Assembly (NCBI RefSeq): GCF_000332355.1
Contig: NZ_KB235958.1
Span: 1,519,445 to 1,583,444, forward strand
Direction: 5' to 3'
DNA length: 64,000 bases
Origin: Baaleninema simplex PCC 7105
Lineage (GTDB): Bacteria > Cyanobacteriota > Cyanobacteriia > Cyanobacteriales > Geitlerinemataceae
In this document: piece by piece, positions 34,526 to 39,376 of the stretch
Numbering within the stretch: the first letter of the stretch is position 1
Layout: the number at the start of each line of letters is the position of its first letter
Notes under the pieces: model-generated
The model's input: only the letters and a program-made list of their open reading frames with translations
Told to the model about the DNA's origin: nothing
Database searches by the model: none
Position numbers and translations under genes: made by a program

Positions 34526-34556
34526 ATGGTTGGGCGATCGCATCGCTGGTTCGATT

Positions 34557-35669
34557 TTAGCCAAACAACGGATCGGGGTAAGGTGCATCAGCCGGTAAGA
34601 GATGTGCTTGACTCAAATCGACTTCCGGCGGAATCTGTGCGTCACCGTAGATATAGGTATTTGTGAAGTCGGTATGTTCAAACTGACAGTCTCGAAATGA
34701 TACGTTTCGTAAGTGGGAATTTTTAAAACTTGCGTATCGTAAGCTCGATCCAGAAAAATCGGTATCTTTTATTGAAGTTGCAATCACTTGACAAAAATCA
34801 AGTTGAGCTTGCTGCAAGTTTCCTCGATGTATGCGTAGTTTTATTAAAATAGAATGTTTTAAATTAGCATAACTTAGATTCAGATTCGGGAAGTACATAG
34901 GAAGAGCCTTAGCTAAATTAAACTTGTCTAAGTCAACATGACTCAGATTGACTCGACTTAAATTAGCATGACTCAAATCAGCATGGCTCAAATCAATATC
35001 TCCAAGATAACCAAAATCAAGAGATTGAATAACACCTGGAATTTGGCTAAAGTCAGCATGACTTAAGTTTGAATATGGTTTTAAAATATAAGCTTTTGCG
35101 AGCTTATTTTCGGGTATATTAGGAACAGAATAATATTTTGTATTTGTACCTACTTCAATATAATTAAAATTATCATAATAGCGAAATAAGCAACCTTCAA
35201 AATCCACATTTTTAAAAATGCAATCTCCTAGCATATAGGCATCTATAAAATTAGCATAATTTAATACTGTTTTTTCAAAATAACAGTTTTCAAACCATGT
35301 ATCTCTTGCTTTACAATAAGATAAGTTGGTTTTAGTCAAATTAGCACCGATCAACCACATATCACCAAAGTATGAATACCTTAAATCTGAATTTGATAAA
35401 TCAATATAGTAACCTAAACCATAAATCTCTGAATGCTTCAAGTTAGCCCTGTTAAATATAGTACCCTCTAATCCACAATCCATGATACGAGATCCTTCCA
35501 AATTTGTATCTGTAAAGTTTGCATCTTCCATGCTCATTCCAGTAAAATGAATACCTGGTAAATGAAATTTTTGGAAGCTTTCATTACTTATGTCTTTAAA
35601 TTTAAAAATTCTTATTCCTTTATTGTATTGTTCGTGTAACTCTTCTGCTGTAAGCTTCTCATAACTCAT
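34557..35669 (-). CDS. Pentapeptide-repeat protein, copy A (last of four)
   Basis: A 370-residue protein of tandem A(D/N)LXX-type pentapeptides, which build a right-handed square beta-helix. The start ATG 35669 gives MSYEKLTAEELHEQY; the frame continues upstream into the preceding copy's spacer. The repeat array runs from about residue 45 to 345 (DANFTDTNLEG, LSHADLSHANLSRVNLSHVDL). The last about 75 residues, ending in HLLPADAPYPDPLFG, are almost identical in all four copies. No membrane or signal segment. Functions of such proteins range from gyrase mimicry to scaffolding; none is predicted here. Confidence 0.88.
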   Translation of the reverse strand: MSYEKLTAEELHEQYNKGIRIFKFKDISNESFQKFHLPGIHFTGMSMEDANFTDTNLEGSRIMDCGLEGTIFNRANLKHSEIYGLGYYIDLSNSDLRYSYFGDMWLIGANLTKTNLSYCKARDTWFENCYFEKTVLNYANFIDAYMLGDCIFKNVDFEGCLFRYYDNFNYIEVGTNTKYYSVPNIPENKLAKAYILKPYSNLSHADFSQIPGVIQSLDFGYLGDIDLSHADLSHANLSRVNLSHVDLDKFNLAKALPMYFPNLNLSYANLKHSILIKLRIHRGNLQQAQLDFCQVIATSIKDTDFSGSSLRYASFKNSHLRNVSFRDCQFEHTDFTNTYIYGDAQIPPEVDLSQAHLLPADAPYPDPLFG

Positions 35670-35724
35670 CGCTCTATTTACCTTTGTTCTATGGTTGGGC
35701 GATCGCATCGCATCGCCAGTTCGA

Positions 35725-36840
35725 TTAGCCAAACAACGGATCGGGGTAAGGTGCATCAGCCGGTAAGAGATGTGCTTGACTCAAATCGACTTCCGGCGGA
35801 ATCTGTGCGTCACCGTAGATATAGGTATTGGTGAAGTCGGTATGTTCAAACTGACAGTCTCGAAATGATACATTTCGTAAGTGGGAATTTTTAAAACTCG
35901 CGTATCGCAAGCTCGATCCAGAAAAATCTGTATCTTTTATTGAAGTTGCAATAATTTGACAAAAATCAAGTTGAGCTTGCTGCAAGTTTCCTCGATGTAT
36001 GCGTAGTTTTATTAAAATAGAATGTTTTAAATTAGCATAACTTAGATTCAGATTCGGGAAGTACATAGGAAGAGCCTTAGCTAAATTAAACTTGTCTAAG
36101 TCAACATGACTCAGATTGACTCGACTTAAATTAGCATGACTCAAATCGGCATGGTTCAAGTCAAGATCGTTGAGTCCAGAAGCGATTAAACTATCTAAAT
36201 TTGGAATCTGGCTAAAATTAGCACAACTTAAATTAGAGTGTGGCTTTAAAATATAAGCTTTTTCAAGATGCTCTTCAGGTATATTAGGAACAAAATAATA
36301 TACTTCATCTTTAAAAGGAGTACAATAATTAGAGCCATTGGCAGCATAACGAAACAAACAGCCTTCAAAATCTACATTTAAAAAAATGCAATTTCCTAAA
36401 AAATAAACATCTAGAAAATTCGCATATTTAAGTTCCGATCGACTAAAATAACAATTGTCAAACCATGTTTCACTGGTTTTACAATAAGACAAATTGGCTC
36501 GAAAAAAGTTTGCGTGACTAAAAGTTGTCTTCCCAAAAGCCGAATATCTCAAATCTGCATTTGAGAAGTCAGTATACTCAATCTTTTTTCTATAAAAGTC
36601 CGAATGTTTTAAGTTAGCCCCATCGAATATAGTTCCGTTTAATTCACAACTATAAAACTCGCATTTTTCTAAATTGGCCCCTCTAAAGTTTGCGTCCTCC
36701 AAGTTTACACGATCGAATCTAATGCCTGGAATATGGAAATCTTGACAATTTTCTCCCGACAAGTCTTTAGAGTCAAAAATCCTGACACCGCGATCGTATT
36801 GTTCTTGTAACTCTTCTGCTGTAAGCTTCTCATAACTCAT
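35725..36840 (-). CDS. Pentapeptide-repeat protein, copy B
   Basis: A 371-residue paralogue from ATG 36840 (MSYEKLTAEELQEQYDRG). It shares with copy A not only the conserved C-terminus but also the preceding stretch NLSRVNLSHVDLDKFNLAKALPMYF, so these two have the longest shared 3' portion. The region between about residues 25 and 240 differs. It is 55 bases upstream of copy A. AT-rich, unlike lpdA and the genes upstream of the array. Confidence 0.88.
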   Translation of the reverse strand: MSYEKLTAEELQEQYDRGVRIFDSKDLSGENCQDFHIPGIRFDRVNLEDANFRGANLEKCEFYSCELNGTIFDGANLKHSDFYRKKIEYTDFSNADLRYSAFGKTTFSHANFFRANLSYCKTSETWFDNCYFSRSELKYANFLDVYFLGNCIFLNVDFEGCLFRYAANGSNYCTPFKDEVYYFVPNIPEEHLEKAYILKPHSNLSCANFSQIPNLDSLIASGLNDLDLNHADLSHANLSRVNLSHVDLDKFNLAKALPMYFPNLNLSYANLKHSILIKLRIHRGNLQQAQLDFCQIIATSIKDTDFSGSSLRYASFKNSHLRNVSFRDCQFEHTDFTNTYIYGDAQIPPEVDLSQAHLLPADAPYPDPLFG

Positions 36841-36892
36841 CGCTCTATTTACCTTCGTTCTATGGTTAGGCGATCGCATCGCTGGTTCGATT

Positions 36893-38032
36893 TTAGCCAA
36901 ACAACGGATCGGGGTAAGGTGCGTCAGCCGGTAAGAGATGTGCTTGACTCAGATCGACTTCCGGCGGAATCTGTGCGTCTCCGTAAATATAAGTATTGGT
37001 GAAGTCGGTATGTTCAAACTGACAGTCTCGAAATGATACGTTTCGTAAGTGGGAATTTTTAAAACTTGCGTATCGTAAGCTCGATCCAGAAAAATCCGTA
37101 TCTTTTATTGAAGTTGCAATAATTTGACAAAAATCAAGTTTAACCTGTTTTAAACTGCCTCCATAAATGTATATTCTTAGTAAGAGCGTATGGCTTAAGT
37201 TTGCACAATTTAGATTTATATTATTAAACCTCATAGGGGGGATCTTGGTTAATTTAGTATTTCTTAGATGAGTGTTGCTTAGATCGGCTAGACTCAAGTT
37301 AGCATGGCTTAAATTAGCATAGCTTAAGTCAAGTTTATCAAGTCCACCAGTACCGACTTCGTTAGCTAAACATTTAATTTGGCTAAAGTCAGCATGACTC
37401 AAATTAGAGTGTGGCTTCAAAATATAAGCTTTTTCAAGACAATCTTCAGATATATTAGGAACAAAATAATGTCTCATGTCTTCAGGATCTTTATTTTTGC
37501 AAAAATTGAAATAATTAGAACCCTCAGCACTGTAGCGAAACAAACAGCCTTCAAAGTCTACATCAGTAAAAATACAATTTCCTTCAAAACCAACTTCTAG
37601 AAAATTAGCATATTTTAGAATTGCTTGACTGAAATCACAATGCCGAAAGCTGGTTTGCTCAGTAGTTCTACAGAAAGATAAATTGGCTCGATAAAAATTG
37701 GCACTATCGAAAGTCATCCTGCTAAAAGTCGAGTATCTTAAATCTGCGTTCGAGAAATCAGCGTAAGTAGCTGTAGTTCTATAAATATCTGAATGTGTTA
37801 AATTAGCTCCATCGAATATGGTGCCGTCGATCGATCCACATTCAACAATCGACAAACCTTCTAAGTTTGCACCCGTAAAATTTACATCATTCAAGTTCGA
37901 GTGAGAAAATTTAACACCTGGAATATATAATCCTTGAAAATCTTCACCCGACAAGTTTTTGTAGGCAAAATATCTGATACCTTGTTCGTACTGTTCTTGT
38001 AACTCTTCTGCTGTCAGCTTCTCTTTACTCAT
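36893..38032 (-). CDS. Pentapeptide-repeat protein, copy C
   Basis: A 379-residue paralogue from ATG 38032 (MSKEKLTAEELQEQYEQG). Pentapeptides such as FSNADLRYSTFSRMTFDSANF and LSYANLSHANLSLADLS fill it. The C-terminus from about TSIKDTDFSGSS onward matches copies A and B almost residue for residue. The middle is its own. Spacing to copy B is 52 bases. Confidence 0.88.
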   Translation of the reverse strand: MSKEKLTAEELQEQYEQGIRYFAYKNLSGEDFQGLYIPGVKFSHSNLNDVNFTGANLEGLSIVECGSIDGTIFDGANLTHSDIYRTTATYADFSNADLRYSTFSRMTFDSANFYRANLSFCRTTEQTSFRHCDFSQAILKYANFLEVGFEGNCIFTDVDFEGCLFRYSAEGSNYFNFCKNKDPEDMRHYFVPNISEDCLEKAYILKPHSNLSHADFSQIKCLANEVGTGGLDKLDLSYANLSHANLSLADLSNTHLRNTKLTKIPPMRFNNINLNCANLSHTLLLRIYIYGGSLKQVKLDFCQIIATSIKDTDFSGSSLRYASFKNSHLRNVSFRDCQFEHTDFTNTYIYGDAQIPPEVDLSQAHLLPADAPYPDPLFG

Positions 38033-38084
38033 CGCTCTATTTACCTTTGTTCTATGGTTAGGCGATCGCATCGCTGGTTCGATT

Positions 38085-39218
38085 TTAGCCAAACAACGGA
38101 TCGGGGTAAGGTGCATCAGCCGGTAAGAGATGTGCTTGACTCAAATCGACTCCCGGCGGAATCTGTGCATCACCGTAGATATAGGTATTGGTGAAGTCGG
38201 TATGTTCAAACTGACAGTCTCGAAATGATACGTTTCGTAAGTGGGAATTTTTAAAACTTGCGTATCGTAAGCTCGATCCAGAAAAATCGGTATCTCGTAT
38301 CAAAGTGGCAATAACTTGACAAAAATTAAGTTGAGCCTGTTGTAGATTTCCTTGAACAATCATTTGTTTTATTAAAATAGCATGATTTAAATTAGCATGA
38401 CTAAAATTAACTTCTTTAAAGCCTGTAGGAGGGATTTTAGTCAAATCGAGTTCGCCTAAACTAGTGTGACTTAAGTTAGCTAGACTTAAGTTAGCGTGAC
38501 TCAAATTAGCGTAGCTTAAGTTCAGTCCACCAAGATAAATTTTGTTGAGATTATCTAAAGCTTGAATTCGGCTAAAATCAGCATGACTTAAATCAGAGTG
38601 TGGTTCTAAAATATAAGCCTTTGTAAGCTTATCTGCTGAAATATTCGGAACACTATATTTTTTGAATTCTTCACGTTCGTCATCTCCAGTGTAGTTTCCA
38701 AAACATCTCGAACCATTGTGAGTATGACGAAATAAGCAACCTTCAAAATCGACTTCTTTAAAAAGACAATTTCCTCTAATATGAGCCTGTAAAAAATTAG
38801 CATACTTCAGAATAGTTTTTTCAAAATAACATCCGTCTAAATCTACCACCTCCATCAAGCAAGAAGACAAGTCAGTTCGACTAAAATTTGTAAAATCCAA
38901 TCCCATGCTAGAAAATTGCGAATAGCTTAGATTGGAATTTGAAAAGTCAGTGTATCTACTAGAATTTCTATGAATGTCTCCATAACTCAAATTCGATTTT
39001 TCAAATATAGTGCCATTCAATTGACAATAATATATCGAGCATTTTTCTAAATTAACACCTATAAAATTGGCATTATCTAAATTTGAATAATTGAATATAG
39101 TACCGGGGATTTGCAATCCTTGGAAATTTTCATCTGAAAAATCTTTGGCACTAAAATCTCTAACACCGCGATCGTATTGTTCTTGTAACTCTTCTGCTGT
39201 AAGCTTCTCTTTACTCAT
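38085..39218 (-). CDS. Pentapeptide-repeat protein, copy D (first of four)
   Basis: A 377-residue paralogue from ATG 39218 (MSKEKLTAEELQEQYDRGVRDF). It is first in transcription order and has the most divergent middle, with DLSSCLMEVVDLDGCYFEKT and LANLSHTSLGELDLTKIP. The C-terminal cassette (TDFSGSSLRYASF to PDPLFG) is again nearly identical, with one visible change, PPGVDLSQ for PPEVDLSQ. The 140-base gap upstream is the likely promoter region of the whole array. Confidence 0.88.
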   Translation of the reverse strand: MSKEKLTAEELQEQYDRGVRDFSAKDFSDENFQGLQIPGTIFNYSNLDNANFIGVNLEKCSIYYCQLNGTIFEKSNLSYGDIHRNSSRYTDFSNSNLSYSQFSSMGLDFTNFSRTDLSSCLMEVVDLDGCYFEKTILKYANFLQAHIRGNCLFKEVDFEGCLFRHTHNGSRCFGNYTGDDEREEFKKYSVPNISADKLTKAYILEPHSDLSHADFSRIQALDNLNKIYLGGLNLSYANLSHANLSLANLSHTSLGELDLTKIPPTGFKEVNFSHANLNHAILIKQMIVQGNLQQAQLNFCQVIATLIRDTDFSGSSLRYASFKNSHLRNVSFRDCQFEHTDFTNTYIYGDAQIPPGVDLSQAHLLPADAPYPDPLFG

Positions 39219-39376
39219 CGCTCTATTGACCTTCACTCGATCGCTTCAATTTTTCAGTCCGCCAACACTACAATCTTATGCTGGGCGTTGTGGCTTCCTA
39301 CAACACAAGATAATTTTCCTCAGTAGACCGATCGCACTCCCGATCGCATCCCCCAAACCCACACGATCGCCCCCAC

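Follow-up and report, generated by a model that had tools for sequence, protein, structure and literature searches.

A 64,000-nucleotide stretch of the genome of the cyanobacterium Baaleninema simplex PCC 7105 (contig NZ_KB235958.1, positions 1,519,445 to 1,583,444), referred to here as the window, contains a tandem array of four pentapeptide-repeat genes, named A to D. We consider it probable, on the basis of homology and gene neighborhood, that these genes form a toxin-less, orphan immunity array and that a fifth family member, gene E, encodes an immunity protein. The arrangement is that of a polyimmunity locus, i.e., four same-strand tandem paralogs with no toxin gene in the array, together with the toxin-linked paralog E. 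The features of the array are as follows (window positions; aa, amino acids; bp, base pairs).

Gene D, 38085..39218, minus strand: pentapeptide-repeat protein, 377 aa; the first gene of the array
Junction block D/C, 37985..38294, minus strand: tail of D, 52 bp spacer, and head of C; nearly identical to the other junctions
Gene C, 36893..38032, minus strand: pentapeptide-repeat protein, 379 aa
Junction block C/B, 36793..37102, minus strand: tail of C, spacer, and head of B
Gene B, 35725..36840, minus strand: pentapeptide-repeat protein, 371 aa
A/B exchange tract, B side, 35965..36147, minus strand: identity between A and B
Junction block B/A, 35622..35934, minus strand: tail of B, spacer (3 bp longer), and head of A
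Gene A, 34557..35669, minus strand: pentapeptide-repeat protein, 370 aa
A/B exchange tract, A side, 34797..34979, minus strand: identity between A and B
Array end, 34526..34766, minus strand: tail of A and a partial copy of the spacer

The four genes lie head to tail on one strand, with a repeating unit of 1168 to 1192 bp and nearly identical non-coding spacers of 52 to 55 bp. At every junction, the tail of one gene, the spacer, and the head of the next gene form one continuous stretch of homology of about 310 bp; fragments of the spacer also occur upstream of D and downstream of A. The array consists, then, of tandem units that share a homogenized junction. A preliminary description of the locus had reported genes with fixed ends and variable middles, and this pattern is real: divergence along the codon alignment changes as a step, with no gradient, and the contrast is far beyond chance. 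Its wording needs one correction, in that the "ends" are a single continuous tail-spacer-head block.

Over the last 69 codons, A to D share at least 98% protein identity, with synonymous differences per site (pS) of 0.04 to 0.20 and nonsynonymous differences per site (pN) of at most 0.01; pS is 0 to 0.27 over the first 16 codons. The middle (222 to 229 codons) is 50 to 75% identical, with a pS of 0.50 to 0.62 and a pN of 0.23 to 0.33. Because synonymous divergence, and not just protein divergence, collapses in the tail, spacer, and head, the ends must have been homogenized at the DNA level, and because these three parts are one unbroken block, recombination between tandem units, by unequal crossing-over or conversion, explains them best. 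Genes A and B additionally carry an exchange tract, with zero synonymous or nonsynonymous differences over about 50 more codons upstream of the tail (longest identity run over variable sites, permutation p = 0.0002). Both the gene conversion at the ends and the longer 3' block common to A and B that had been proposed for this locus are thereby upheld.

The middle looks like the product of old divergence. Its ratio of nonsynonymous to synonymous divergence (dN/dS) is 0.14 to 0.43 per pair, about 0.3 overall, with synonymous sites near saturation, so positive selection is unsupported. Outward-facing positions, which were assigned by repeat register only, hold more residues per alignment column than inward-facing ones (2.53 versus 1.97), with no excess of amino-acid change; their dN/dS is about 0.28, not above 1, again at near-saturated synonymous sites. 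Selection for diversity in the center is thus not supported, and the suggestion that the genes vary a binding surface is plausible in the narrower sense of an immunity family.

A search of the whole genome recovered one more full-length relative, E (G000:C4:1027483-1028607), located about 0.5 Mb from the array, 59% identical to C, and with the same tail. E starts 24 bp past the stop codon of a gene on the same strand that encodes a 1902-aa protein, the C terminus of which is an Endonuclease_NS (PF01223) DNA/RNA nuclease domain (E value = 1e-38); PF01223 had no match anywhere in the window. The surrounding locus contains Rhs genes and repeated Rhs ends with other tips, three of which are followed by ankyrin-repeat immunity-like genes, a layout that resembles the known toxin-immunity arrangement. 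At L014 (3857-13082), three Rhs ends with related tips are each followed by a different ankyrin-repeat gene, forming an array of Rhs tip cassettes in which the ankyrin proteins are candidates for immunity. A second nuclease-tipped gene of the E locus (L011:5388-8262) is split by a frameshift, and a convergent pentapeptide-repeat gene still adjoins it.

The pairing seen at E is general. All four nuclease tips in the B. simplex genome, including one whose gene is frameshift-split, have a downstream pentapeptide-repeat gene: E lies on the same strand as its nuclease gene, two others are convergent neighbors, and the fourth, also convergent, is 2.3 kb away, beyond an IS630-like transposase gene. 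In six other genomes, each of the 19 giant-protein tips that were fetched has a pentapeptide-repeat gene 55 to 400 bp from the nuclease domain, and the 23 pairs from these seven genomes comprise 20 convergent and 3 same-strand arrangements. A second scan, of named genomes, found a partner beside 12 of 13 toxin-class nucleases and 0 of 63 stand-alone nucleases (Fisher p = 4e-13), with pairs in Tychonema, Oscillatoria, Microcoleus, Phormidium, Geitlerinema, and Prochloron, among others. Three of these 12 are loci already counted, leaving about 32 distinct tips with a partner. Pooled, about 32 of 34 toxin-type nuclease domains have a pentapeptide-repeat neighbor, compared with about 1 of 90 stand-alone secreted nucleases, the sole case being a repeat gene 0.8 kb away in the first search. 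The two toxin-type exceptions are a 456-aa protein that lacks the scaffold motif (L104) and one of 680 aa (L076). Classes were assigned by open reading frame length and motif, with the neighbor not used; repeat genes were identified by a rule based on tandem repeats, with a Pfam or NCBIfam check on A to D, E, and one partner.

Nuclease identity and neighbor identity co-vary across the pairs (Mantel r = 0.68, p = 0.0002). Nuclease and partner thus move together as one cassette, in the manner of toxin and immunity genes, although this does not prove binding. Two or three pentapeptide-repeat genes follow a single nuclease tip at L081, L155, and L174, possibly a step toward a stand-alone array.

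Partner and scaffold can be told apart at one locus. A common giant scaffold carries nuclease tips in some loci and an ART-like tip in another (G014:C151), where no pentapeptide-repeat gene follows. Tips are exchangeable on this scaffold, which has the constant body and swappable C-terminal toxin tips of a polymorphic toxin; the immunity gene expected beside the tip was found by position only, at the E locus and its homologs. Because the same scaffold with an ART-like tip lacks a repeat gene, the partner appears to go with the nuclease tip and not with the scaffold, a contrast that rests on one clear case. At L181 (2-3616), the giant scaffold with an ART-like tip is followed by an orphan second ART-like tip, whose match (E value = 6.5e-6) is under the curated cut-off; this arrangement is evidence that tips can be swapped.

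At six loci (L085, two at L086, L087, L091, and L166; from G031, G228, G205, and Prochloron), the pentapeptide-repeat gene is embedded, in antisense orientation, within the open frame of the giant nuclease-bearing gene, and in the cases read through that frame continues to a conserved HExxHxxG-type domain. Among the embedded genes, none of the 126 leucine codons is TTA or CTA and none of the 64 serine codons is TCA; in separate repeat genes, TTA and CTA make up about 14 to 58% of leucine codons. The embedded gene is possibly an immunity gene set antisense in its own toxin gene.

By profile, A to D are pentapeptide-repeat proteins (Pfam PF00805 and PF13599, 124 to 127 bits against a cut-off of 20.2). 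An AlphaFold run with five sequences gave a beta-helix for gene C, broken near residues 169 to 190 (mean predicted local distance difference test score, 82). The best Foldseek match of this model is HetL of Nostoc; given the low TM-scores, the Foldseek matches support the fold class only. All NCBIfam matches to HetL, Qnr, and MfpA fall far under their cut-offs, e.g., 86.6 of the 260 bits required for the HetL equivalog NF047416 and 55.6 of 240 bits for Qnr. Inspected by eye, the sequences of A to D have no evident secretion signal. DNA mimicry by charge was considered and set aside; the repeat proteins are acidic, yet so are many nuclease domains, making charge of little diagnostic value.

We propose that each of A to D would act as a beta-helix that binds and blocks the Endonuclease_NS/NucA nuclease tip of a toxin delivered by a competitor. 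E would neutralize the nuclease tip of its neighbor and so protect its own cell, and A to D, its toxin-less kin, would guard against competitors' variants of that toxin, as has been proposed for polyimmunity loci. In such a scheme, the variable middle would set specificity and the constant C-terminal part would serve stability or dimerization. Tandem duplication through the common tail-spacer-head block could have built the array, and later exchange through the same block would keep the ends alike while the bodies differ; crossing-over within it would add or drop whole genes with the reading frame intact. More broadly, we lean slightly toward the view that pentapeptide-repeat proteins serve cyanobacteria as a general family of immunity proteins against nuclease-tipped polymorphic toxins, encoded by toxin-linked convergent genes, antisense-embedded genes, and toxin-less arrays.

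Several observations weigh against an immunity role. Most partners are convergent with the toxin, which is unusual for immunity genes, and E is one of only 3 of 23 on the same strand. A to D are not near a toxin, and the role assigned to them rests on homology to E; they also have no dN/dS sign of diversifying selection. The nuclease beside E keeps the H, N, and E residues of its motif, but DRGH reads AQGH, which may weaken it. Finally, pentapeptide-repeat genes are abundant (184 to 191 PF00805 matches in each of two genomes, several per gene), so many serve other roles.

One alternative is that the array is a lineage-specific expansion of ordinary pentapeptide-repeat proteins with a cellular role, such as HetL-like regulator binding or gyrase protection, and that E sits behind a toxin gene by chance. 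The fold and profile matches to HetL, Qnr, and AlbG would fit, as would the many pentapeptide-repeat proteins of cyanobacteria, with 31 besides HetL in Nostoc (PMC7476756). We regard this as unlikely; the profile scores for HetL, Qnr, and MfpA are far too low, and because linkage to nucleases recurs systematically from genome to genome and depends on the tip, the position of E is no chance event. The partners might instead serve the giant proteins as adaptors, chaperones, or regulators. Convergent placement, and antisense overlap with the giant gene in six cases, would permit regulation, and the pentapeptide-repeat accessory proteins TagAB/TagB are known in type VI secretion loci (PMC3942780). 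This explanation seems quite improbable to us, as the partner tracks the nuclease tip and not the scaffold and co-varies with the nuclease, and the toxin-less A to D would have no adaptor role.

The array could also consist of simple old tandem duplications, its ends alike only through functional constraint on the C-terminal cap. Such constraint exists: E lacks the head block and the spacer, and because this remote copy nevertheless keeps the tail (pN 0.03 to 0.04 and pS 0.27 to 0.40), the tail, or cap, is also under purifying selection. Constraint as the whole explanation is nonetheless very improbable, given that the head, the non-coding spacer, and the synonymous sites of the tail are homogenized within the array (pS 0.04 to 0.20) but not in the head of E (pS 0.77 to 0.98), and given the A/B tract (p = 2e-4).

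The accessible part of a survey of polymorphic toxins (Zhang et al. 2012, PMC3482391) describes polyimmunity loci, usually without a toxin gene. Its homogeneous polyimmunity loci are, like A to D, tandem same-strand paralogs of one immunity-like family with no toxin in the array and a toxin-linked member elsewhere in the genome; here, the family is pentapeptide-repeat, the host is cyanobacterial, and neutralization is a candidate function. In that part of the survey, the only reported sources of extended polyimmunity loci are proteobacteria, bacteroidetes, firmicutes, and actinobacteria; Imm-NTF2 and Imm36 appear there as partners of Tox-NucA toxins, and the word "pentapeptide" does not occur. 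Tox-NucA (Endonuclease_NS) with Imm-NTF2/Imm36, and NucA/NuiA of Anabaena, involve the same nuclease family and a paired immunity or inhibitor protein, whereas the partner described here is a pentapeptide-repeat beta-helix and mostly convergent with the toxin. The fold of NuiA is unrelated to that of the pentapeptide-repeat partner. NucA of Anabaena is secreted; stand-alone secreted nucleases in the analyzed sets lack a pentapeptide-repeat partner.

Precedents with the same fold differ in target and organization. McbG, an immunity protein in the microcin B17 toxin operon (PMC10886550), AlbG (albicidin), Qnr, and MfpA protect DNA gyrase, whereas a nuclease toxin is the expected target here, and the genes form an array of several members whose middles vary. 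HetL, a cyanobacterial pentapeptide-repeat protein described as conferring immunity to the PatS/PatX inhibitor peptides (PMC7476756), binds HetR and is a single gene with no toxin gene. Rhs loci with displaced tip cassettes have repeated Rhs ends and alternative tips, with an immunity-like gene behind each tip, whereas the array in the window carries no tip and lies far from the Rhs locus. We regard the array as being of a known kind, built from candidate immunity proteins of a new kind; literature searches, which left most subscription journals outside, found no paper linking pentapeptide-repeat genes to nuclease toxin tips.

Cyanobacterial genomes encode dozens of pentapeptide-repeat proteins of mostly unexplained function, and the link to nuclease tips offers a testable job for a subset of them. 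These proteins would be a new structural class of candidate immunity proteins for polymorphic toxin systems, pointing to toxin-based competition among filamentous cyanobacteria. If the immunity reading is true, the array is a repertoire kept recombinable through its common junction block.

On either side of the array are genes that, judged from sequence, resemble those for dihydrolipoamide dehydrogenase and a substrate-binding protein. Its AT-rich composition, reported earlier, was confirmed: A to D have 34 to 36% G+C content against about 52% in the surroundings, with G+C fractions of 0.30 to 0.34 in the middle and 0.45 in the tail. The foreign origin drawn from this composition is not established; the family is absent from 58 related genomes (no relatives at E < 1e-20), but E, which belongs to this genome too, is just as AT-rich. 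No homologs were found in a first scan of genome contigs, a set that may exclude the window's own or near genomes. Across 385 other genomes of the phylum, and in the fairly close relative that carries L155, generic pentapeptide-repeat matches alone turned up, and none of the other genomes analyzed has the A to E family. A phage origin was rejected, as viral contigs had no exact 20-base match to the tail and no tblastn-confirmed relative; so were a plasmid origin (no relative in plasmids) and a known defense system (no PADLOC match). A repeated spacer at L155 (2029-2361) and L013 (10687-10809), considered as an array spacer, proved instead to be an inverted repeat resembling a miniature inverted-repeat transposable element; it has GTCTTCGGAGTTTGTG / CACCCTAAACTCYGAAGA ends and in each of the two genomes is located close to the pentapeptide-repeat genes.
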